From contig NZ_RWJF01000001.1 in the NCBI RefSeq assembly GCF_003970925.1, positions 2,660,501-2,724,500 on the forward strand: a stretch of DNA of 64,000 nucleotides, in the 5' to 3' direction. A program made the position numbers and the translations under genes. The notes under the pieces were generated by a model, which saw nothing but the letters and a program-made list of their open reading frames with translations, made no database searches and had not been told where the DNA came from. Within the stretch, counting starts at the first letter, position 1. The number at the start of each line of letters is the position of its first letter. This DNA comes from Sphingomonas ginkgonis. GTDB lineage: Bacteria; Pseudomonadota; Alphaproteobacteria; Sphingomonadales; Sphingomonadaceae. Positions 6,837-53,275 of the stretch are shown piece by piece.

Positions 6837-7268
6837 ATGTGGCAGGATTTTCGTGCCTTTATCGCCCGCGGCAACGTGCTCGACCTTGCGGTCGCCGTGA
6901 TCATCGGCGGCGCCTTCGGCAAGATCACCACCAGCCTGGTCGAAGATGTCGTCATGCCGATCGTCGGCGCCATCTTTGGCGGGCTGGACTTCTCCAGCCA
7001 TTTCCTCCGGCTCGGCCCGGTACCGGCGGGCTACCGGGGTTCGCTCAGCGACTATGCCGCGCTCAAGAAGGCCGGTGCGCCGATCCTTGGATGGGGCGAG
7101 TTCGTCACCCAGGTGCTGAACTTCCTCATTCTCGCCTTCATCATCTTCATCCTGGTCCGCTACGCGACCCGGCTGATGGCGCGGAAGCCCGAGCCCGAGG
7201 CGACTCCGGCACCGACGGAGATCGAACTGCTCACCGAGATCCGCGACGCGTTGCGCACGCGCAGCTGA
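6837..7268 (+). CDS. mscL: Large-conductance mechanosensitive channel MscL
   Basis: 143 aa, normal MscL length. The N-terminal amphipathic helix and TM1 read DFRAFIARGNVLDLAVAVII with the conserved GGAFGKI turn. A periplasmic loop (~45-75) and TM2 (FLILAFIIFILVRY) follow, ending in a charged C-terminal helix (EIELLTEIRDALR). It gates open on membrane tension to release solutes in hypo-osmotic shock. The start ATG has GGGAGA 8 nt upstream; an in-frame TTG 60 bp earlier is less likely. Probably monocistronic. Confidence 0.95.
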   Translation: MWQDFRAFIARGNVLDLAVAVIIGGAFGKITTSLVEDVVMPIVGAIFGGLDFSSHFLRLGPVPAGYRGSLSDYAALKKAGAPILGWGEFVTQVLNFLILAFIIFILVRYATRLMARKPEPEATPAPTEIELLTEIRDALRTRS

Positions 7269-7275
7269 CCGGCAC

Positions 7276-7308
7276 TGCCCCGGCTCTCGCTCGTTCAGGG
7301 CCGGGGCA
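7276..7308 (+). terminator. Stem-loop after mscL, possible terminator
   Basis: A 9-bp GC-rich inverted repeat (7276-7284 with 7300-7308, loop 15 nt) begins 8 bp after the mscL stop. No U-tract follows on the plus strand, so it may be a weak terminator or 3'-end stabiliser. Confidence 0.4.
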
Positions 7309-7331
7309 ACAAGAAACTTGAGAGACAATCG

Positions 7332-7997
7332 TTGAAACTGATCATCGGCAACCGCGCCTATTCGAGCTGGTCGATGCGCGGCTGGCTCGCCGTCAAGCAC
7401 AGCGGCATCGCCTTCGAGGAACTGGTCGTTCCCCTCTACAACGAGGCGTGGGAGAAGCGGCGCGAGGGAGACGAATTCGCCCCGTCGCTGGGCAAGGTGC
7501 CGATCCTGTGGGACGGTGACGCGGTGGTCTGGGACAGTCTGGCGATCGTAGACTACTGCGCCGACAAGGTCGGCCGGGAGCGCTACTGGCCCGCGGATGA
7601 CGGCGCGCGCGCCATGGCGCGATCGATGGCGGCGGAAATGCATTCGAGCTTCGCGAACCTGCGCCGGGAGCTGCCCTTCAACGTCCGCCGACTGATCGAG
7701 AACCATCGTCTCAGCAATCCCGTCCGCGCGGAGATCGACCGCATCATGGTGCTGTGGGCTCAGGCGCGGGCACGCTGGGGAAGCGGCGGCGAATATCTGT
7801 TCGGAGGCGCGTGGACCGCGGCGGACATGATGTTCGCGCCGGTCGTCTGCCGCTTCGTCACCTACCAGGTTCCCGTGCCGCCCTTCGCGGCGCGTTACAT
7901 GGAAGCGGTGCTCGCCCATCCTCACGTCACCGGCTGGATCGAGGCGGCGCAGGAGGAGCCCTGGGTCATCGAGGAGTATGAGCCGCAGCCGGCCTGA
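7332..7997 (+). CDS. Glutathione S-transferase family protein
   Basis: 221 aa. The N-terminal thioredoxin-like domain begins with KLIIGNRAYSSWSMRGWLAV, a Ser-type active-site region (YSSWSMR) seen in GST-like enzymes of proteobacteria. GKVPILWDGD and VWDSLAIVDYC form the glutathione gamma-Glu site (cis-Pro and the D-S pair). The C-terminal all-helical domain runs from ~88. The start codon is TTG, with a weak GAGAG upstream. Substrate unknown; such enzymes are usually cytoplasmic. Confidence 0.85.
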   Translation: MKLIIGNRAYSSWSMRGWLAVKHSGIAFEELVVPLYNEAWEKRREGDEFAPSLGKVPILWDGDAVVWDSLAIVDYCADKVGRERYWPADDGARAMARSMAAEMHSSFANLRRELPFNVRRLIENHRLSNPVRAEIDRIMVLWAQARARWGSGGEYLFGGAWTAADMMFAPVVCRFVTYQVPVPPFAARYMEAVLAHPHVTGWIEAAQEEPWVIEEYEPQPA

Positions 7998-8016
7998 CGG
8001 CCGGTCGCGACGGCCT

Positions 8017-8250
8017 TCATAGATCGATCCCGGCGGCGATGGCCTCCAGCTTGCGGACCCGCTCGCGCAGGTCGGCGATCTCGATCCGCCCGCCGGTCGC
8101 GACGGGGGCGCCCCCATCCTGAATTCGGGCGATTTCAAGCCGTCGCACGTCGAGCCAGCCCTGCCAGCCCTTGAGCAACGCGGCGCTGGTGATCCCGAGC
8201 CCCGTCAGTCCGACCGCACCGAGGGTCAGGATGGAGTCGATCGCGATCAT
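8017..8250 (-). CDS. PspB-like small membrane protein
   Basis: 77 aa. One N-terminal membrane helix (about residues 6-27) is followed by a charged helix ending ADLRERVRKLEAIAAGI, a short coiled coil. This is the architecture of PspB (one TM, then a helix that binds PspC/PspF partners); E. coli PspB ends in a similar RERIQALE pattern. Its ATG overlaps the stop of pspC (ATGA), so it is coupled to it. If correct, gene order is A-C-B rather than the usual A-B-C. Named by architecture and context only. Confidence 0.6.
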   Translation of the reverse strand: MIAIDSILTLGAVGLTGLGITSAALLKGWQGWLDVRRLEIARIQDGGAPVATGGRIEIADLRERVRKLEAIAAGIDL

Positions 8251-8657
8251 TTCCGGTCCTCCGACTTCTCGTGGCGCAGCGCCTCGATTTCGCGGGCGAG
8301 GTCGTCGCTGCTGCGGCTGTTGAGGTGATGATCGATCGCCATCATCCGGCGATCGTTGGTGTCGAGGTTCTCGCGAAGGTCGCGGATCGAGTGACGCCGC
8401 CCGGTGTCGTAATCCATCCGGTCGAGCTCGCTGCCGCGCCGGCGGCGCAGCTTGCCCGCGGCAAAAAAGCCGATGGCGCCAAGCGCGAGGTAGGCGATGA
8501 AGGCCTGCCAGAAGGTCACGAAGGTGAGGAACGGCACGGCGATGAAGCCGACCCGAATGAAGGTCGGGTCGATGTTCAGCGTGCGGCCCAGCCCGGAGCA
8601 GACGCCGAGCAGCTTCTTCTCGCGGCGGTCGAGGCTGAACGGAATGCGGTCGGTCAT
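8247..8657 (-). CDS. pspC: PspC domain-containing protein
   Basis: 136 aa. The first ~65 residues are a PspC domain: FSLDRREKKLLGVCSGLGRTL, then NIDPTFIRVGFIA and a membrane segment (FLTFVTFWQAFIAYLALGAI). The C-terminal half is soluble and charged, ending in a coiled-coil-like stretch (DDLAREIEALRHEK). In enterobacteria PspC senses membrane stress with PspB and releases PspA/PspF. Between pspA (14 bp gap) and the PspB-like gene (4-bp overlap). SD AAGGGG is ~9 nt before ATG. Confidence 0.85.
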   Translation of the reverse strand: MTDRIPFSLDRREKKLLGVCSGLGRTLNIDPTFIRVGFIAVPFLTFVTFWQAFIAYLALGAIGFFAAGKLRRRRGSELDRMDYDTGRRHSIRDLRENLDTNDRRMMAIDHHLNSRSSDDLAREIEALRHEKSEDRK

Positions 8658-8671
8658 GGCGTCTGATCCCC

Positions 8672-9460
8672 TTAGTGACTGCGGCGCGCGGCGAGCGCGG
8701 CCTTCATGGCGTTAAGCTCGGCATCAATCGCCTCGGCGGCGCGAAGCTCGGCAAATTCCTCTTCCAGGCTCTTCGGCCCGGTCATTCCCATCGCGTCGGC
8801 ATAGCCTTCGGCCAGGTCCGCGCGCTTCTCCAGCAGGTCGAAGCGGGCGAAGGCGTCGGCGGCGCGCGCCGAGTTCATGATTTCCCGCGAACGGGCGCGG
8901 GTCATCGCACTCTCGAGCCGGCTGGCGATAGCGTGCTGCCGGGCACGCGCCTCGTTGATCTTGGCCTGGAGCCGGGCGATATCCGCCTCATAGCCCTTCA
9001 GCAGCTGCTCCAGTGCGAGCATCTCCGTCCCGAGCGACGCGGCGATGTCGGCGGCCTTCTGCCGCTCGGCCAACGCCAGGCGGGCGAGATCGTCGCGGCC
9101 CTTGTCGAGCGCCAGCTCGGCCTTATCGGCCCAGCCCTGTTCGACGGTGGCCAGCCGCGCGGTGGTGCGGCGCATCTCCTTCATGTCGGCGATCGACCGG
9201 GCGGCCGAGGCGCGAACTTCGACCAGCGCCTCCTCCATTTCGACGATCATCAGCCGGATGGTGGTGGCCGGGTCCTCGGCGCGGTCGAGCATCTCGCCGA
9301 CGTTGGCGGCGATGATGTCGCGGGCGCGGCTGAAGAGCGGGTGACCGAAGAAGGCAGCGAGCGGAGTGGCGGGCCGGGTCTCGGCCCGCGGCTCCTCGAT
9401 CCGCTCGAGGCGGATCGCCCGCTCGGGCACCTTGGCTTCGATCGGGGTCAGGTCAGGCAT
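8672..9460 (-). CDS. pspA: Phage shock protein A (PspA/IM30 family)
   Basis: 262 aa, ~40 longer than E. coli PspA because of an N-terminal extension (residues 1-35). The PspA/Vipp1 fold starts at FFGHPLFSRARDIIAANVGE and continues as long coiled-coil helices to the end. PspA binds stressed inner membrane and, in E. coli, inhibits PspF. Two ATGs are possible; 9460 is preferred because GAAGG sits 9 nt upstream, whereas the ATG at 9490 has none. Its start overlaps the end of a small upstream ORF by 8 bp. Confidence 0.9.
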   Translation of the reverse strand: MPDLTPIEAKVPERAIRLERIEEPRAETRPATPLAAFFGHPLFSRARDIIAANVGEMLDRAEDPATTIRLMIVEMEEALVEVRASAARSIADMKEMRRTTARLATVEQGWADKAELALDKGRDDLARLALAERQKAADIAASLGTEMLALEQLLKGYEADIARLQAKINEARARQHAIASRLESAMTRARSREIMNSARAADAFARFDLLEKRADLAEGYADAMGMTGPKSLEEEFAELRAAEAIDAELNAMKAALAARRSH

Positions 9461-9596
9461 AGAAGGCAACCTTCGCGGAAGCGGCGCCATAGCTGGCAGT
9501 GGCGGGGCCGACGGCCGAACCGACGGCGACGGAGCTCATCAGCAGCGCAGCGGCTGCGGCGATCAGCGTGCGGTGAAGCGTGGAAACCTTGTGCAT
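9453..9596 (-). CDS. Small secreted/membrane peptide leading the psp locus
   Basis: 47 aa, starting MHKVSTLHRTLIAAAAALLM with a clear signal-peptide-like hydrophobic core and an Ala-rich end (SAKVAFYA). GGGAG is 8 nt upstream of ATG. It ends 8 bp inside pspA, and the pspA Shine-Dalgarno lies within it, so translation of pspA is likely coupled to it. No known family recognised; envelope-stress role is inferred only from position. Confidence 0.65.
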   Translation of the reverse strand: MHKVSTLHRTLIAAAAALLMSSVAVGSAVGPATASYGAASAKVAFYA

Positions 9597-9648
9597 CGTC
9601 TTGCTCCCTGGATGCCGGCGGAGGGGGTGCCGGTCATGCCAGCTACAA

Positions 9649-9664
9649 TTCAAAAGCCGTGCCA
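9649..9664 (-). promoter_or_regulatory. Candidate sigma-54 promoter of the psp locus
   Basis: On the minus strand the sequence reads TGGCACG-N4-TTGAA. It matches the sigma-54 consensus (TGGCACG-N4-TTGCA) except for A in place of the important C of the -12 element. It would start transcription near 9640, ~45 nt before the leader ORF. Psp operons are classically sigma-54/PspF driven; pspF itself is not in the window. Confidence 0.5.
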
Positions 9665-9738
9665 AACCCGCATTTGCGGGAAAAATGCTGCTGATGGCTG
9701 CATCGGGAGATGATGTTGGTGGATTATCCCACCGGCAG

Positions 9739-9755
9739 TTGGGAAATCCTCCCAA
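9739..9755. promoter_or_regulatory. Inverted repeat, possible upstream activator site
   Basis: TTGGGA-N5-TCCCAA is a perfect 6-bp dyad with a 5-bp spacer. A further TCCCA half-site lies at 9727-9731, and CCCGCA-TT-TGCGGG is at 9667-9680, next to the candidate -24 element. The 9739-9755 dyad lies ~100-115 bp upstream of the inferred psp start, a usual distance for an enhancer-binding activator site. Confidence 0.4.
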
Positions 9756-9815
9756 ATGGAACCCTCGCGAGCGCCTGAGCGCTTTAGCTCGAAACATCGC
9801 AACGGGAGTTCAACA

Positions 9816-10025
9816 ATGCTGGGGAAGATTCTGGGCGCAATCGTCGGCGAGAAGCTGGCCGGCCCCAACCAGGGCGTGAAGGGCGCGCTGCTCGGCGCCG
9901 CTGGCGCCCGCATCGCCACCAAGGGTCTCGGCCGCCTCGGAACGCTGGCGATCGCCGGCTATGGCGCCAAGAAGCTCTACGACTGGAACAAGGCGCGCCG
10001 GAGCGGCACCGCTCAGACTTACTGA
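9816..10025 (+). CDS. Small conserved hypothetical protein, Gly-rich
   Basis: 69 aa: MLGKILGAIVGEKLAGPNQG, then a Gly/Ala-rich hydrophobic part (KGALLGAAGARIATKGLGRL) and a basic end. The glycine spacing suggests a membrane-associated hairpin. GGGAG precedes ATG by 7 nt. It is divergent from the psp locus and shares its control region, so it may be co-regulated. A strong terminator follows directly. No function assigned. Confidence 0.6.
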   Translation: MLGKILGAIVGEKLAGPNQGVKGALLGAAGARIATKGLGRLGTLAIAGYGAKKLYDWNKARRSGTAQTY

Positions 10026-10050
10026 CGCGAGCCCTTCAACAGCGTGCCGG

Positions 10051-10088
10051 AACGGCGGTCAGGCTTCGGCCTGGCCGCCGTTTTCCGT
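10051..10088 (+). terminator. Intrinsic terminator inside the 3' end of the convergent DUF3297 gene
   Basis: An 8-bp and a 5-bp stem separated by a T-G wobble (10051-10064 with 10069-10082) close a TTCG tetraloop and run into TTTTCCGTTT. It ends the transcript of the 9816-10025 gene. The same DNA encodes the last residues and stop of the DUF3297 gene on the other strand. Confidence 0.8.
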
Positions 10089-10346
10089 TTCGTCGCCTTC
10101 GGTCACCGGGTTCTGCAAATAAGGCTCGACGGTGCCGTTGAGCTTGATTGTCATGGGGTTGCCGTGGCGGTCCCGGCTCTTGCCGGCGGCGACGCGGATC
10201 CAGCCTTCGGAAATGCAATATTCCTCGACGTTGGTCTTCTCCTGCCCGTTGAACTTGATGCCAACGCCCTGGCGGAGAAGGTCCGCGTCGAAGTGCGGGC
10301 TGCGCGGGTCGAGCGAGAGACGGTCGGGAAATTGTTGATCAGCCAT
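10059..10346 (-). CDS. DUF3297 family protein
   Basis: 95 aa. Segments such as PDRLSLDPRSPHFD, GVGIKFNG and VEEYCISEGWIRV followed by GNPMTIKLNGTVEPY are those of the DUF3297 family, a small protein of unknown function common in alpha- and gammaproteobacteria. The acidic tail (EGDETENGGQAEA) lies in the terminator DNA of the converging gene. Divergent from metC with ~55 bp between starts. Confidence 0.85.
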   Translation of the reverse strand: MADQQFPDRLSLDPRSPHFDADLLRQGVGIKFNGQEKTNVEEYCISEGWIRVAAGKSRDRHGNPMTIKLNGTVEPYLQNPVTEGDETENGGQAEA

Positions 10347-10401
10347 GGCGCCGCCCCTACCCCTCCCGGCGAACGGCGGTCAACGCCATGAGCGAGGAAC
10401 G

Positions 10402-11568
10402 ATGGCGATGGCGCGCGACTGGCGGACGAGGCTGATCCACAGCGAGGCCCGCGCCCCGGCGGGCTTCCGCTCGATGACGACCCCGGTCCATCGCGGCTCC
10501 ACCACCTTCTTCGAGACGGCGGAAGAGGTGTGCGACGGCTCGGACCAGGACAATCCCTACCGCTACGGGATCTACGGCACGCCGACCACGCTCGAGCTCG
10601 CGGCGAGGATGGCGGAGCTGGAAGGCGGGACCGACGCGATCATCGTCCCCAGCGGGCTTGCCAGCATCTCCCTGGTGTGGCTCGCGCTGACCCAGGCGGG
10701 CGGCCACGTCCTCGTCCCCGAGAACGCCTACGGGCCGAACCCCCTGCTCGCGCACAAGCTGATGAGCCGGTTCGGAGTCGAGACGCAGACCTATAAGCAC
10801 GACATCGGCGACGGGATCGCGTGGCTGATCCGCGACAATACCCAGCTGATCTGGACCGAGACCCCGGGTTCGGTGACGATGGAGGTGCAGGACGTGAAAG
10901 GCATCGCCGAGGCCGCGCGCGACCGCAACGTCCCGGTCGCGCTCGACAACACCTACGGCGCCGGGGTTTTCTACAACGGCTTCGAGCATGGCGCCGACAT
11001 CGTCATCCAGGCGCTGACCAAATATGTCGGCGGACACAGCGACCTGCTGCTCGGGTCGGTGACGGTCCGCGACGCGGCGCTGTTGGCGAGGCTTCGGGAC
11101 GCCTACAACTGGCTCGGCCTCAGCGTCTCCCCCGACGAGTGCAGCCTCGCGCTGCGCGGGTTCAAGACGCTCGCCGTCCGCCTCGACCATCTCGAGCGCG
11201 CGACTCTCGAAGTGGCGCGCTGGTGCGCGGAGCAGCCCGAGATCGAACAGGTGCTCCACCCCGCCCTGCCCGGCTGCCCCGGCCACGAGATCTGGAAGCG
11301 CGACTTCTCCGGCTCGGCGAGCATCTTCTCGATCGTGTTCTGCGACGGCTTCTCGCGCGAGCGGCTGCTCGCCTTCGTCGACCGGCTCGAGCTGTTCCGC
11401 ATCGGCTTCAGCTGGGGCGGTGCCGGCAGCCTCGTCATGCCCTATTTCGGACCCAACCGGGCGACCAAGCTGTACGGCGAGCGGCTGGTCCGCTTCAACA
11501 TCGGGCTGGAGAGCCCCGCCGACCTCGTCGCCGATCTGCAGCAAGGCCTTGCCGCGCTGCGCGATTAG
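10402..11568 (+). CDS. metC: Cystathionine beta-lyase (PLP-dependent Cys/Met metabolism enzyme)
   Basis: 388 aa. The Cys/Met-metabolism PLP fold is clear: YGIYGTPTTLELAARMAELE, IVPSGLASISL, ETPGSVTMEVQD, LDNTYGAGVF and the PLP lysine in QALTKYVGGHSD (K207). The C-terminus has FSWGGAGSLVMP, typical of MetC. It would cleave cystathionine to homocysteine in methionine synthesis. The 10402 ATG follows GAGG; upstream in-frame codons overlap the divergent gene's promoter. Monocistronic as far as seen. Confidence 0.9.
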   Translation: MAMARDWRTRLIHSEARAPAGFRSMTTPVHRGSTTFFETAEEVCDGSDQDNPYRYGIYGTPTTLELAARMAELEGGTDAIIVPSGLASISLVWLALTQAGGHVLVPENAYGPNPLLAHKLMSRFGVETQTYKHDIGDGIAWLIRDNTQLIWTETPGSVTMEVQDVKGIAEAARDRNVPVALDNTYGAGVFYNGFEHGADIVIQALTKYVGGHSDLLLGSVTVRDAALLARLRDAYNWLGLSVSPDECSLALRGFKTLAVRLDHLERATLEVARWCAEQPEIEQVLHPALPGCPGHEIWKRDFSGSASIFSIVFCDGFSRERLLAFVDRLELFRIGFSWGGAGSLVMPYFGPNRATKLYGERLVRFNIGLESPADLVADLQQGLAALRD

Positions 11569-49430: not shown

Positions 49431-49589
49431 ATGTCCGCCGGGATCCTCATTGCCATCGGCGCCATCGCCGGCTTCGCCTTCGGACTGCTCCGCGGGGAGA
49501 CCAACTGGTGGACCTTCGTCGGCACGATCGCCGGGGCCGCCGCCGCGCTGCTCGTCTACCTCGTCGACCGCACCCGCCGCCGCGGCTAG
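49431..49589 (+). CDS. Small two-TM membrane protein
   Basis: 52 aa from this ATG: ILIAIGAIAGFAFGLLRG is TM1, WWTFVGTIAGAAAALLVYLV is TM2, then RTRRRG. Alternative ATGs at 49401 and 49413 add 6-10 residues; none has a clear SD. It converges on the S24 repressor gene with a 4-bp CTAG overlap. Function unknown. Confidence 0.5.
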   Translation: MSAGILIAIGAIAGFAFGLLRGETNWWTFVGTIAGAAAALLVYLVDRTRRRG

Positions 49590-50236
49590 GCGATCCGCCG
49601 CGCCGCCCAGATCACCCGGCCGATGATGCTGAGCTGCTCGAGGCTGCAGTCGGGCCAGTCGGCGTAGGCGGGGTTGTCGGACTGGACGGTGATCCGCCGG
49701 GTGACGGGGTGGATCGCCAGCCGCTTGACCATCAGCGCCTCGTCCAGCCGAAGCACGTAGATCCCGTCGCGCAGCCGTTCGACCCCGTCGCTCTGGTCGA
49801 TCAGGATGTCGTCGCCGTCGGCGAGGGTCGACGCCATGCTGTCGCCCTCGACCCGGATCAGCGTGAGATCCTGCACCGCCGAGCCGGTCAGGTTGCGCAG
49901 CCAGCGCTCGTCGAACGCGAAATAGGGCGGCCGCTTGGCCTCGTCGTCGGTGTAGGCGCCGGGCCCCGCCGAAGCGCGGATCTCGATGCGGCTGATGGGA
50001 ATCAGCCCGCGCGAGCCGTTGCCAGGCACCTCGGGCGCGCCGAGCAGGGTCTCGGGAACGTCGAAGTAGCGCGCCAGGGTCCGGCGGTCGCGCTCGTCGA
50101 GTCGCTTGGGCACGCCGCGCTTGACGAATTGCTGGATGTAGGCCGGGTTGCGCCCGATCAGGCGCGACAGGCCGGCAAAGTCTTCCCCGCGCTCGGCGCA
50201 CAGGCGATTCAGGACGTCACGAGGACTGCCGGGCAT
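49586..50236 (-). CDS. LexA-like S24 peptidase repressor
   Basis: 216 aa. N-terminal HTH (RLIGRNPAYIQQFVKRGVPK), a probable self-cleavage Ala-Gly at ASAGP (A90-G91), and catalytic Ser133 (EGDSMASTL) and Lys171 (MVKRL). This is the arrangement of LexA/CI-type repressors that cut themselves in response to RecA or another signal. Targets unknown, but it probably represses itself and the divergent gene. An IS1595 element now sits 37 bp upstream of its start. SD is absent, so translation may be leaderless or start elsewhere. Confidence 0.8.
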   Translation of the reverse strand: MPGSPRDVLNRLCAERGEDFAGLSRLIGRNPAYIQQFVKRGVPKRLDERDRRTLARYFDVPETLLGAPEVPGNGSRGLIPISRIEIRASAGPGAYTDDEAKRPPYFAFDERWLRNLTGSAVQDLTLIRVEGDSMASTLADGDDILIDQSDGVERLRDGIYVLRLDEALMVKRLAIHPVTRRITVQSDNPAYADWPDCSLEQLSIIGRVIWAARRIA

Positions 50237-50251
50237 GGTTTGTTCTACGCA

Positions 50252-50265
50252 TAGGAAAGTGCCTA
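50252..50265. promoter_or_regulatory. TAGG-N6-CCTA dyad, candidate operator of the S24 repressor
   Basis: An inverted repeat 16 bp before the S24 start codon, overlapping by one base the target duplication of the mobile element. A third matching half-site (TAGG at 53048-53051) now lies on the far side of the element. Confidence 0.45.
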
Positions 50266-50272
50266 GACAAGT
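50265..50272 (+). repeat. Target site duplication, left copy
   Basis: AGACAAGT directly abuts the left inverted repeat. The identical 8 bases abut the right one at 53041-53048. 8-bp duplications are the known size for IS1595-family transposition. Confidence 0.88.
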
Positions 50273-50297
50273 GGCGATGTTATACATTACATACCCA
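50273..50297 (+). repeat. Left terminal inverted repeat
   Basis: 25 bp starting GGCGATGTTATAC and ending ACATACCCA. It differs from the right copy at positions 7, 14 and 16. Confidence 0.9.
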
Positions 50298-50317
50298 GCC
50301 AAGGCAGGAGGGTGCAG

Positions 50318-51202
50318 ATGTTAGCGCCTAGCCGCGTCTGGAGCCTTCGAGAGATGCTTGAACTCAATGCGTTGCCCTTCCTTGGTGCGGCAACAACCAT
50401 GGCTCGTTTGCACAGCATACTTACGAACTTGGCTGAGGATCATGGTGATGAGTCTGCAAGTGGCTCAGCAAAAACCGTTAATCCTATACTGGACAAGTTC
50501 AAAGCGGAGGCAGCAGCGATCGGGGCGCGCTTGGCCGTAAAGGCTGTCGATCGGCTGTCCGCTGCCTTGCAGGCCCCGGAATGCACTCTTTCCGTCAAGG
50601 ACCTGACGGCCGCGATTTTCCAAATCGAAAGTAGGTTCGCGGACTATTTGGAGGACGTTCAATTCTTTGCGTTAAGCGAACACGAATCAGCAATGATGGG
50701 GTCCGCCGACACGCTCGTTGCAATGGACGGCTTCAGCGTCCTTTTCCCGGCAGCCTCGTTCGAGGCTGAGGAGGCGGCCAAGTGCATCGCCTTAGGCAGG
50801 CACACTGCAGCCGTCTTCCATTCGATGAGGATGTTGGAGATTGGGATCAAGGCGTTGGCGAAGCGCCTTTCCATACCAAGCCCTACTAAGTCGGCAGAGA
50901 AGAACTGGAAATTCATCTTAGATTCTATTCGGGCAAAGGTCGATGAGCTCTACCCAGCTGGTAAGCGCCTTCCCCATTCAGAAGGAGCCGCTTTCGAGGA
51001 CTTGCTAGTTAATCTGGAAGCCGTTCGTAACCCGTGGCGTAACGCTACCATGCATGTCGAAAATATATATGCCCCGCACGAAGCGCTCCACATAACGAGG
51101 TGCTCGACGTTTTTCATGGTTAAACTGTCGAGTTTAACTGACGAGGCGGGCTGTCCGTCCGGGGCCGAGCAGCAGCTACTTGAGGGCGGCACGCGCGCCT
51201 AG
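50318..51202 (+). CDS. Cargo protein, HEPN-like (unassigned)
   Basis: 294 aa, helical and soluble. AGGAGGG stands 5 nt before the ATG. The C-terminal third (about 160-270) has RHTAAVFHSMRMLEIGIKAL, a long helix, and VRNPWRNATMHVENIYAP. The RNATMH string (R241 to H246) fits the R-x4-6-H motif of HEPN nucleases, and the pattern resembles DUF4145-type HEPN proteins. The first ~140 residues match nothing I know. Codon use is visibly more A/T-rich than in chromosomal genes. It converges on the DUF2335 gene with a CTAG overlap. Possible toxin or defence role is inference. Confidence 0.65.
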   Translation: MLAPSRVWSLREMLELNALPFLGAATTMARLHSILTNLAEDHGDESASGSAKTVNPILDKFKAEAAAIGARLAVKAVDRLSAALQAPECTLSVKDLTAAIFQIESRFADYLEDVQFFALSEHESAMMGSADTLVAMDGFSVLFPAASFEAEEAAKCIALGRHTAAVFHSMRMLEIGIKALAKRLSIPSPTKSAEKNWKFILDSIRAKVDELYPAGKRLPHSEGAAFEDLLVNLEAVRNPWRNATMHVENIYAPHEALHITRCSTFFMVKLSSLTDEAGCPSGAEQQLLEGGTRA

Positions 51203-51672
51203 TCTCCGCCTTTCCGACCCCGAATGATTGCGCCCACAGTCCCGAGGGCTCCTGCTCCCAAGAACGCAATGGCTAGCTTTTCATGGCCTAAATAGGCGGA
51301 AAGGATCGCGCCGACAATCAAAAGCGCCAAGGCGAGGAAGCCGTAAAGCCGACCATCCCGGGTGTCCTTTATGTCGCCATCGAGCGCCATTCGCTGCATG
51401 TCGTGGTTATGCTGCAAATTGCTCTCAGCCATCGAGATGATCCGATCGGCGGACCCTGGTAGAATGCTTTCATACTCACGAAGGTGACGCGGGTGAGCAA
51501 TTGGCCCAGAGAAGCGCTCCTCGGCAACTAGCCCAATCATCTGGGCGACTACCTGCTTCCGCTGTGGACCGGAAACGACGCTGCCAATGCGTTTGGTAAT
51601 CTCCTGCTCGATCTCCTCCTGAATCTCAGGGAGCGGAGCAGACTTTGGGTTGCTTGCGGGAGGCTTCCCCAA
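51199..51672 (-). CDS. DUF2335 membrane protein (cargo)
   Basis: 157 aa. FSGPIAHPRHLREYESILPG and ADRIISMAESNLQHNHDMQR are the DUF2335 signature; two TM helices follow (110-129, 132-150) and a short basic tail. DUF2335 proteins occur on phages and mobile elements; their function is unknown. Start codon TTG with GGAG 10 nt upstream, inside the end of the 78-aa ORF (47-bp overlap in another frame). Confidence 0.75.
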   Translation of the reverse strand: MGKPPASNPKSAPLPEIQEEIEQEITKRIGSVVSGPQRKQVVAQMIGLVAEERFSGPIAHPRHLREYESILPGSADRIISMAESNLQHNHDMQRMALDGDIKDTRDGRLYGFLALALLIVGAILSAYLGHEKLAIAFLGAGALGTVGAIIRGRKGGD

Positions 51673-51862
51673 TTTGGCGATACTCCACTTCCGACTGGGA
51701 AAGGGCTCTTGATACCCCGTTCCATGCCTCTAGCAAGGACGCATCAATGCTCTCCGCTCTTCCGTACCGACGAGGAGTGAAGAAAAACATTGGCGCTGTG
51801 AAGCCTTCAATGAGCCCGCGACGGAAGGCTTTAGATCCAAGCCTGAAAGTGCCCGCTGACAT
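51626..51862 (-). CDS. 78-aa cargo protein
   Basis: Starts MSAGTFRLGSKAFRRGLIEG, continues with FTAPMFFFTPRR and an acidic helical end (ALSQSEVEYRQIGEAS). Basic N-terminal helix, no TM. It ends within the DUF2335 gene, so the two are probably translated together. The A/T-richer codon use matches the element. Similarity to known families not recognised. Confidence 0.6.
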   Translation of the reverse strand: MSAGTFRLGSKAFRRGLIEGFTAPMFFFTPRRYGRAESIDASLLEAWNGVSRALSQSEVEYRQIGEASRKQPKVCSAP

Positions 51863-51928
51863 AGTCTCTATCTAACCTCTCTCCGAGGGAATTCCAACTG
51901 CCTTGCGCAAGGGCGGGTTTCCCGTCCC

Positions 51929-52075
51929 TTAACGCCGGCGCTCCCTAACTAGTTTCTCAAGCACCTCAACGGCCCTTTCTGGGTCGAGTTCGCCAGCGTT
52001 GATCAACCTTTCGGCCTCTCGCTTGAACCGCTCGCTTTGCTCTTCCGCGCTCTCGAGGTGCTTCTTGGGAGGCAT
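51929..52075 (-). CDS. 48-aa accessory protein coupled to the transposase
   Basis: Starts MPPKKHLESAEEQSERFKRE and ends KLVRERRR; a highly charged, helical peptide. Its ATG shares a base with the transposase TGA (TGATG), so the two are made together. Similar short charged proteins accompany IS1595-type transposases as far as I recall; role unknown. A GC hairpin (51911-51928) and a perfect palindrome CCTTGCGCAAGG (51901-51912) follow its stop and may terminate transcription. Confidence 0.65.
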   Translation of the reverse strand: MPPKKHLESAEEQSERFKREAERLINAGELDPERAVEVLEKLVRERRR

Positions 52076-52992
52076 CAGGCCCTCGCAGCAGTTGTTTGAT
52101 AGGTGAGGCGCTTTCCGACGATACCCTTCAGCATCAGATCGGCACGCGCCGCGTCGTCAACGCCCACCTTCTCCCGGTGGCTATAGCGAAACTCGAACTC
52201 GGCGAGATAGCGGTGCAGGTGCTTCTCGGCGCAATGCTGGTAGACGCCGCGCATACCACGCTTGAAGATGCTGAACGCGCCCTCAACGGTGTTGGTGGTC
52301 ACGTCGCCGCGGACGTACTCCTTGTTATAGTGATGCACCGCCGAGTGCTCGGCAAACTCGCGCCCGATCTTGCGATACATGACATGTTCGTCGGTCATCA
52401 AGCGAGCTTCACGCGACAGGTTCTCTAGAACGATGCCCTGGATCTGCTTGCCGCCGTCAACGTGGAAGAGTCGGCTCTTGCCGGTGTTGCGATCGACGAG
52501 GCCGAGCACAGTCATCTTGTGGCCCCAGCCACCCTTCGGCACTTCCCGGCCAGCCTTACGACCGATGTAGGTCTCGTCGACTTCAACCGCGCCGCCCTCA
52601 TGGCCGAACGGGGTAAGATCGCCTTCGCGCATGGCCTCGCGGATGCGGTGCGACATGAACCAGGCGGTCTTCAAGGTGACGCCAAGGATGCGGTGCAGCT
52701 GGTTCGAACTGATGCCCTTCTTGCTGCCAGCGACAAGGAAGATCGCCTGGAGCCAGACGTTGAGGGCAACCTTGCTGCTCTCAAAGATGGTGCCCATGCG
52801 GACGGTGAAGGGCTTACGGCACTGATAGCACTTGTAGAGGCCGGGACGGGTGCTCTTGCCCGCCAGCTTGCCGATGCGCTCGACGCCGCCACAGTGCGGG
52901 CAAACCGGACCCTGCGGCCATACGCGAGCCTCAACGAAAGCGAACGCGGCGTCTTCGTTGTGGAAGTGCGGGGCGGAGAGCTTGCTGGCCAT
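52075..52992 (-). CDS. IS1595 family transposase
   Basis: 305 aa, intact. N-terminal zinc ribbon (C31-x2-C34 and C55-x2-C58) followed by an ISXO2-type catalytic domain: VEVDETYIG (D139), LMTDEHVMY (D201) and NTVEGAFSIFKRG (N234/E237, K244). This is the DDNK/DDEK arrangement of the family. Its promoter appears to begin inside the right inverted repeat. Followed by a coupled 48-aa ORF. Confidence 0.93.
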   Translation of the reverse strand: MASKLSAPHFHNEDAAFAFVEARVWPQGPVCPHCGGVERIGKLAGKSTRPGLYKCYQCRKPFTVRMGTIFESSKVALNVWLQAIFLVAGSKKGISSNQLHRILGVTLKTAWFMSHRIREAMREGDLTPFGHEGGAVEVDETYIGRKAGREVPKGGWGHKMTVLGLVDRNTGKSRLFHVDGGKQIQGIVLENLSREARLMTDEHVMYRKIGREFAEHSAVHHYNKEYVRGDVTTNTVEGAFSIFKRGMRGVYQHCAEKHLHRYLAEFEFRYSHREKVGVDDAARADLMLKGIVGKRLTYQTTAARA

Positions 52993-52998
52993 TCACCC

Positions 52999-53027
52999 TA
53001 GGTAATTTCTCACCGTGGGTATGTCAA
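52999..53027 (-). promoter_or_regulatory. Candidate transposase promoter inside the right inverted repeat
   Basis: Minus strand: TTGACA (53027-53022), 17-bp spacer, TACCTA (53004-52999). A start ~7 bp downstream falls on the transposase ATG, so the mRNA may be leaderless. On the plus strand TATAAT (53029-53034), 16 bp after TTCTCA, points outward to the 53105 gene. Confidence 0.45.
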
Positions 53028-53040
53028 GTATAATATCGCC
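53016..53040 (-). repeat. Right terminal inverted repeat
   Basis: Reverse complement starts GGCGATATTATAC and ends ACATACCCA; 22 of 25 match the left copy. Confidence 0.9.
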
Positions 53041-53048
53041 AGACAAGT
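53041..53048 (+). repeat. Target site duplication, right copy
   Basis: AGACAAGT, identical to 50265-50272. Confidence 0.88.
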
Positions 53049-53104
53049 AGGAATTGAAAAGGAATGAATCGTCGTGCCGAGTCGCCCTGGGGCGGGGGAA
53101 AGTC

Positions 53105-53275
53105 ATGTTGCTTCGTGAAGTGGAACGCTACCTCGACAACAGTAAAGTGCCGGCCACCAAGTTCGGCCGGATGGTGATGAAAGATCCTCGGTTTGTCTTC
53201 GACCTGCGGCGCGGTCGGGAGCCTCGGGCGCAGACCATGGCCAAGGTCCGCCAGTATCTGGAGCGGGTCAAGTGA
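53105..53275 (+). CDS. Small DNA-binding-like protein
   Basis: 56 aa. LLREVERYLDNSKVPATKFG followed by DPRFVFDLRRGREPRAQTMA looks like a short helix-turn-helix: a Thr-Lys-Phe-Gly turn and an Arg-rich second helix. GGGGG precedes ATG. Before the element inserted it was divergent from the S24 repressor. Overlaps the next gene (GTGA). Function inferred only from these features. Confidence 0.6.
   Translation: MLLREVERYLDNSKVPATKFGRMVMKDPRFVFDLRRGREPRAQTMAKVRQYLERVK

Follow-up and report, generated by a model that had tools for sequence, protein, structure and literature searches.

The 64,000-nucleotide stretch of the Sphingomonas ginkgonis genome analysed here (contig NZ_RWJF01000001.1, positions 2,660,501 to 2,724,500 of the forward strand; hereafter the window) contains a complete insertion sequence (IS) of the IS1595 family, which occupies window positions 50273-53040 (2768 bp) and carries genes unrelated to transposition. 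This element-level reading is firm. It is likely that the element is a transporter IS (tIS) made up of a head, consisting of the transposase and a small companion open reading frame (ORF), and an exchangeable passenger slot. A broader reading, which we regard as plausible but somewhat short of probable, is that the clade of minimal transposons to which it belongs is a cassette-exchange system, in which a box in the companion ORF would serve as the crossover or recognition point for swapping mostly toxin-, nuclease- or defence-like passengers, and the opposite end would supply a ribosome-binding site and start codon. Such an element would be a one-slot, integron-like carrier derived from a single IS, homing repeatedly on the operator of an S24-type regulator.

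Structure of the element

From the left, the element carries a HEPN-like ORF on the forward strand, followed on the opposite strand by a DUF2335 ORF, ORFs of 78 and 48 amino acids (aa) and the IS1595 transposase. The features of the element and its site are as follows.

50262-50264: CCT, which together with the left AGACAAGT makes up the retained left half of CCTAGACAAGTAGGAA, the conserved site
50265..50272, no strand: left copy of the 8-bp target duplication AGACAAGT (single intact copy in 28/31 loci)
50273..50297, + strand: terminal inverted repeat, passenger end (22/25 against the other end)
50298..50317, + strand: leader with a Shine-Dalgarno-like GGAGG
50318..51202, + strand: HEPN-like passenger, 294 aa, with RNxxxH at residues 241-246
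51199..51672, - strand: DUF2335 protein, 157 aa, TTG start assumed (PF10097, 1.8e-13)
51626..51862, - strand: 78-aa ORF overlapping the DUF2335 ORF, without a family match in Pfam, NCBIfam or PADLOC
51929..52075, - strand: 48-aa companion ORF of the QSERF type, whose ATG overlaps the transposase stop
51981..51997, - strand: core (17 nt) of the frozen box, which lies within the companion ORF; here GCTGGCGAACTCGACCC
52075..52992, - strand: IS1595-family transposase, 305 aa
53016..53040, - strand: terminal inverted repeat, transposase end (22/25 against the other end)
53041..53048, no strand: right copy of the target duplication
53049-53053: AGGAA, right arm of the conserved site
49586..50236, - strand: host S24 peptidase-type regulator, 216 aa (PF00717, 1.9e-17), upstream of which the element sits
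53054..53275, + strand: conserved host ORF of 73 aa bordering the site opposite the regulator, with tblastn homologues that adjoin the S24 gene in genomes G197, G424, G437 and G450

The original prediction, made from the sequence of the window, had proposed a complete IS1595-family element with passengers at this position, and its ends, its target duplication, its intact transposase and an empty site in relatives bear this out. The repeats it had placed at 50265-50272 and 53041-53048 are present as AGACAAGT, with no further copy in the window; the chance expectation for this 8-mer in the window is 0.63, and because at least two copies arose in 13/100 shuffles, the 8-mer alone is weak evidence. 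Just inside the repeats lie terminal inverted repeats identical at 22/25 positions, as had been predicted. Both the short inverted repeats and the 8-bp target duplication (AGACAAGT on both sides, a single copy in empty sites) agree with the IS1595 family, and the three passenger ORFs between the ends, which are unrelated to transposition, agree with a tIS.

What had been described as an intact ISXO2-type transposase is an intact IS1595 frame of 305 aa, which matches PF12762 at 2.9e-32 (112 bits, cut-off 27), PF12760 at 1.9e-11 (44 bits, cut-off 25.4) and the NCBIfam IS1595 model NF033547 at 4e-55 (187 bits, cut-off 75), so that the DDE_Tnp_IS1595 domain and the N-terminal zinc ribbon of the family are both present. 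Residues D139, D201, N234 and E237 are invariant in a five-row alignment. The element may belong to an ISPna2-like subgroup. The element and its transposase occur as one copy in the 3.2-Mb genome, and the cargo half is more A/T-rich than its surroundings, as the original prediction had noted, with a G+C content of 0.55-0.59 in the four ORFs and 0.62 in the transposase against 0.68-0.69 in the 1-kb flanks.

A companion of the transposase with a conserved box

A genome scan with the transposase alignment gave 384 loci, of which the best 80 were kept. Under a rule that required ends alike at 15/25 positions or better and 8-bp repeats with at most one mismatch, 58/80 loci were delimited (1831-4153 bp), 57 of them with perfect 8-bp repeats; one locus with a chance GC-rich repeat (L116) was left out, and 21 more gave no solution. 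Together with the window element and one from genome G437, these form a set of 60 elements. There is no bare IS among those delimited, and 60/60 carry at least one ORF of at least 100 aa beyond the transposase. The largest such ORF is opposed to the transposase in 49/60 elements, and it is the sole ORF of at least 100 aa in 42/60, with the limit that ORFs were picked mechanically and some may be spurious.

All four ORFs that had been predicted as cargo exist, but one of them, the 48-aa ORF, is evidently a small companion of the transposase and not cargo, because it overlaps the transposase stop and its homologues follow the transposase in 32/80 loci, whatever the passenger. The four ORFs are therefore not one module. 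By protein similarity, a second type of companion follows the transposase in 17 further loci, which brings loci with any companion to 49/80.

Inside the companion ORF, eight codons (…GCT GGC GAA CTA AGC CCC ACC GAG…) are conserved beyond what the protein asks for. In 32 loci chosen by companion-ORF protein similarity alone, the excess synonymous codon identity is 0.454 in this box versus 0.024 in 31 other codons of the ORF, with Ala encoded by GCT in 27/27 and Glu by GAA in 32/32. The comparison was made on protein-chosen rows because an earlier one had picked its rows by the box itself; the earlier values, 0.455 versus 0.020, agree with it. A conserved segment of the transposase, taken as a control, has an excess of 0.058, with 0.133 in its best run of eight. 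A role of the box at the DNA level would be the natural reading of this pattern. An exact scan of viral contigs gave three hits, all inside companion ORFs and 2/3 with the transposase in the available stretch of contig.

Probable exchange of passengers

The HEPN-like gene is evidently one of many alternative passengers carried behind closely related heads. The window and G437 elements are 80.8% identical along their first 1060 bp, up to exactly the end of the box, and share a further 19 bp in the far inverted repeat. Likewise, loci L073 and L082 have elements with different genes between an 88% identical head and a final 54 bp that is 94% identical. Among 31 box-bearing elements there are 31 close pairs (head identity of at least 78%), in which the heads are 78-88% identical and the middle is unrelated; homology stops 0-40 nt past the box (median 12) in 31/31 of these pairs. 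Identity in these pairs averages 0.95-0.97 within the box, compared with 0.61-0.70 immediately ahead of it and 0.25 beyond +60; the last 25-54 bp are similar in 3/9 close pairs listed.

Passenger labels do not follow the transposase tree. On the tree of the 60 elements, five passenger labels on 38 rows (22 unlabelled rows not being counted) require 19 changes versus a shuffled mean of 18.9, a value as low being reached in 126/200 shuffles, and the HEPN label alone requires 8 changes versus 9.1 (as low in 110/500). Passenger exchange appears well supported by these comparisons.

At the far end of the element, the in-frame start codon lies exactly 45 nt from the element end in 15/50 elements with an opposed ORF near that end, including ATG 50318 of the window, and a leader of the type GGGGTGCTA-R-RTG is common to HEPN-like, DUF3800 and other passengers. 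An imperfect inverted repeat of the type GGTGCTAG-ATGA-CTAGCGCC surrounds some passenger starts (L056, L065 and window 50310-50333) and extends a few codons into unrelated ORFs. Integron-like core sites sought by eye at this leader were too short to mean anything.

In the mechanism that we propose, the moving head would be the intact transposase with its translationally overlapped companion protein, and the far half would be an exchangeable slot. Passengers would be replaced by recombination between elements through two crossovers, one at or close to the box and a second within the leader or inverted repeat of the far end, and would be expressed from that leader.

Several observations weigh against this proposal. 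With elements in common, the close pairs are not mutually independent, and the 45-nt spacing is confined to the 15/50 elements given above, the others differing from it. No second copy of the box was found in the 60 elements at up to five mismatches, which speaks against its being half of a direct-repeat pair around the passenger; folding as an RNA hairpin gave tiny helices only (alifold -0.61 sense and -2.0 antisense; shuffled -0.09 and -0.07); and the box is absent from the 17 loci with the second companion type, which excludes it as a clade-wide feature. Companion-ORF identity tracks the transposase weakly (r 0.25; 16/2000 permutations) and is not clearly tied to passenger type (128/2000 permutations reach the excess).

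The strongest alternative, which we nevertheless consider unlikely, is that of an ordinary tIS, in which each lineage acquired its passengers in one chance capture and the elements then diverged, with no exchange mechanism or dedicated boundary. Such elements are already known in the IS1595 family (PMC5704250, PMC3129680), capture by imprecise transposition needs no special site, and 6/9 of the listed pairs lack a shared far-end leader. This account fits poorly, however, with unrelated passengers behind heads that are 80-88% identical, with passenger labels that are unclustered on the transposase tree, with homology that stops no more than 40 nt from the box in every close pair, and with synonymous freezing that is confined to the box.

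A less probable alternative still is that the companion ORF encodes a general antitoxin or regulator, each element being a two-gene toxin-antitoxin unit moved by the transposase. The presence of a companion in 49/80 loci, beside passengers that are often toxin-like, is in keeping with this idea, whereas a single companion type is found beside unrelated passengers (DUF3800, GmrSD/HNH and RelA-like proteins among them), its identity is not significantly tied to the passenger (the 128/2000 permutations above), and it overlaps the stop of the transposase.

The passengers

Among 83 passenger ORFs of at least 100 aa, Pfam matches comprise 18 DUF3800, which is the commonest passenger of this IS1595 clade (loci L050-L129), three each of RelA/SpoT, SocA/Panacea, PIN and GmrSD_N, two HNH, and one each of PemK, KilA-N, DUF2335 (that of the window), trypsin-like, proteasome-like and DUF5343; two integrase-core ORFs resemble nested insertion sequences. 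A passenger cluster of five was labelled RusA-like by us, with a Pfam RusA E-value of 0.14 in 1/3 members scanned. PADLOC gave 11 models on the passengers, the strongest being PDC-S33 in three ORFs (1.4e-123). As a control, 83 flanking ORFs drawn randomly from 462 matched 90 Pfam families, of which the 25 shown were almost all housekeeping or transport, and gave seven PADLOC models (best 1e-13), which makes the passenger excess moderate, a point against the proposed reading. Since the control ORFs are almost all of housekeeping or transport type, with weaker PADLOC matches, the passenger pool differs sharply from the neighbouring genes, the PADLOC excess itself being modest. With its Panacea, PIN, PemK, RelA/SpoT, GmrSD and DUF3800 members, the pool would fit toxins and defence, and a function in defence or addiction may be proposed for the passengers. 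For the five proteins of the window element, PADLOC gave no model at E-values up to 1.

Two loci of the set, L114 and L121, are filed as Bordetella parapertussis (a metagenome-assembled genome) and Oceanobacillus and carry elements of this mainly alphaproteobacterial clade; mislabelling or contamination of these records is possible.

The HEPN-like ORF of the window spans 296 aa from GTG 50312 and is better read as 294 aa from ATG 50318. In its 13 aligned relatives, R241 and H246 are invariant (13/13) and N242 nearly so, which gives the RxxxxH motif of the HEPN superfamily, one motif alone being weak evidence. RxxxxH active sites occur in HEPN RNases of the RnlA/AbiF/Cas13 type. With these the protein shares an invariant RNxxxH near the C terminus of an otherwise probably helical protein; it differs from them in having no significant match to HEPN models or solved structures, PF05168 reaching an E-value of 0.028 for 1/13 relatives only, and a PDB search by sequence and profile giving nothing relevant (best E 0.019, to an unrelated stretch). 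That the protein matches no Pfam, NCBIfam or PADLOC family also counts against the assignment. In viral contigs there were five pattern matches and no relatives of the protein.

Of the cargo set, the HEPN-like gene recurs between IS1595 ends, its family being the passenger in 10/60 elements, usually without DUF2335 or the 78-aa ORF; the latter pair was not found in other elements of the set. At locus L080, the HEPN-like passenger is split into two ORFs. In the family sample, a HEPN-like relative was present in 8/397 genomes, and it lies inside IS1595 elements in 3/7 others; in the class-wide sample, the gene was present in 15/385 genomes, with an IS1595 transposase (match >100 aa) in the fetched stretch in 8/14 others. 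On the opposite side stand the 4/7 other family genomes with no transposase in the fetched 13-14 kb, and class-wide the 5/14 others with none in the fetched stretch and one with only a 30-aa fragment. Since 3/7 and 8/14 of the others have a transposase and the rest do not, the HEPN-like gene appears to be mainly, though not only, an IS1595 passenger.

The DUF2335 protein matches PF10097 above its cut-off (50.6 bits, cut-off 25) and shows by eye two hydrophobic stretches near the C terminus. A match to DUF2335 occurs in 2/296 genomes of the order, one being this genome and the other having 26% identity. The overlapping DUF2335 and 78-aa ORFs (51199-51862) may form one transcription unit.

With less confidence, we suggest that the HEPN-like protein could be an RNase acting as a toxin or abortive-infection effector, and that the DUF2335/78-aa pair could be a second small, membrane-linked unit. 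Both units might then help the element to persist by protecting or addicting its host.

Relation to known elements

Toxin and defence genes are known as cargo of prophages, of large islands and of Tn7-like elements. The carrier described here is only about 2-4 kb long and has one transposase, and such elements may be tiny delivery vehicles for toxin- or defence-like genes. Exchange at the box, if real, would account for the reshuffling of such genes from chromosome to chromosome in the absence of integrases and conjugation modules, and the box together with IS1595 ends would be a simple marker for finding unknown toxin or defence genes.

Transporter IS of the IS1595 family with passengers are in print (PMC5704250 and PMC3129680), and the former names a reference on a lincomycin resistance element for tIS. 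According to PMC5704250, tISCpe8 and MTnSag1/tISSag10 have, like the element described here, an IS1595-family transposase, terminal repeats and a passenger beyond the transposase, and are described as mobilizable with a resistance passenger in Firmicutes. In contrast, the present elements have a companion ORF with a frozen box, diverse toxin- or defence-like passengers and recurrent insertion at the S24 site; no search for an oriT was made. The zinc ribbon with DDE_Tnp_IS1595, the 8-bp duplications and the AT-rich targets are shared with the IS1595 family (Siguier, Gagnevin and Chandler, 2009), whose features are described in the available text of PMC8101967; in that of PMC7371123, the family is mentioned only in a table. 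Tn7-like transposons that carry defence cargo (Benler et al., 2021; PMC8649781) similarly combine a small conserved core with variable cargo rich in defence and toxin-antitoxin genes, but are larger and have several transposition genes and targeting proteins, whereas here there is one transposase, usually one passenger ORF and a length of 1.8-4.2 kb.

An exchange boundary, a companion ORF with a frozen box and targeting of the S24 site were not found in the IS1595 literature covered, which consisted mostly of titles and openings of abstracts; on this scope, no priority can be claimed for the box, the boundary or the S24 targeting.

Probable recurrent insertion in front of an S24 regulator

The target site lies 29 bp upstream of the S24-type regulator gene and faces the conserved 73-aa ORF. 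The regulator was matched in 56/61 genomes of the genus sample, and 31 loci were examined (30 from the genus S24 search, plus G197). An empty site with a single AGACAAGT in relatives, the check that had been named beforehand for this element, is seen at 28/31 S24 loci, where AGACAAGT is uninterrupted in the context CCTAGACAAGTAGGA (up to two mismatches allowed). The remaining 3/31 loci (this genome, G437 and G424) are occupied by elements in exactly those 8 bp, and searching 71 genus genomes for the pattern of an occupied site gave these three again (3/71). TTCCT-AGACAAGT-AGGAA, a putative operator of the S24 regulator, has the duplicated 8 bp exactly at its centre, and TAGACAAGTAGGAA is invariant in 27/27 intact sites profiled, while neighbouring positions vary.

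At the same site, the G437 element has a transposase 85% identical to that of the window and other passengers, namely SocA/Panacea (3e-16), a protein in which an HNH-like stretch scores below the cut-off (2.2e-5), and an ORF of 157 aa. The G424 element is 960 bp long, with different ends (22/25) and a truncated transposase whose fragment is 56% identical over 149 aa. Because G437 groups on the S24 tree with the empty G445 and G438 (99/99) and not with the window or G424, independent insertions would be the simplest reading of the three elements. Descent of all three from one ancient insertion with diverged contents is the least likely of the alternatives: the shared orientation of the three exact insertions and the similarity of the window and G437 transposases are compatible with it, but it conflicts with the S24 tree and with the different ends and diverged transposase of G424, would require many precise losses, and does not cover the elements that G197, G450 and Novosphingobium L081 have elsewhere in that intergenic region.

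In G197 (Sphingomonas alba SE158), an element of opposite orientation lies about 60 bp away from the intact site; that of Novosphingobium L081 lies within the right arm of the palindromic motif and has TAGGATTT repeats. Across the genus, transposase matches numbered 47, in 28/71 genomes, and 5/30 of those fetched as loci fall within the S24 interval, which we estimate to be far above chance against a genome of ~2.5 Mb. The targets are AT-rich (77% A+T in 58 target repeats versus 37% in flanks) and mildly palindromic (5.17 of 16 versus 4.45, sd 0.25), and both preferences contribute to the recurrence in the S24 interval. The element would have inserted at the middle of a palindromic control site before a conserved S24 regulator, and this site may be a preferred target, struck repeatedly by related elements. 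Such recurrence at one 8-bp position in a regulator control site offers a system for studying IS1595 target choice.

Some further observations concern this interval. In G450 (L193, 5700-8400), a distant IS1595 transposase (31% identity) occupies this interval, and neither ends nor repeats can be recognised around it. The L081 element (6939-11091) is apparently interrupted by a nested IS3-type insertion, with integrase-core ORFs, in its transposase-companion region. A second TAGGAA occurs near the TAGACAAGTAGGAA site in front of the S24 regulator (L019-L047), and TAGACAAGTAGGAA, which looks like an unreported operator, is present also in Novosphingobium L081.

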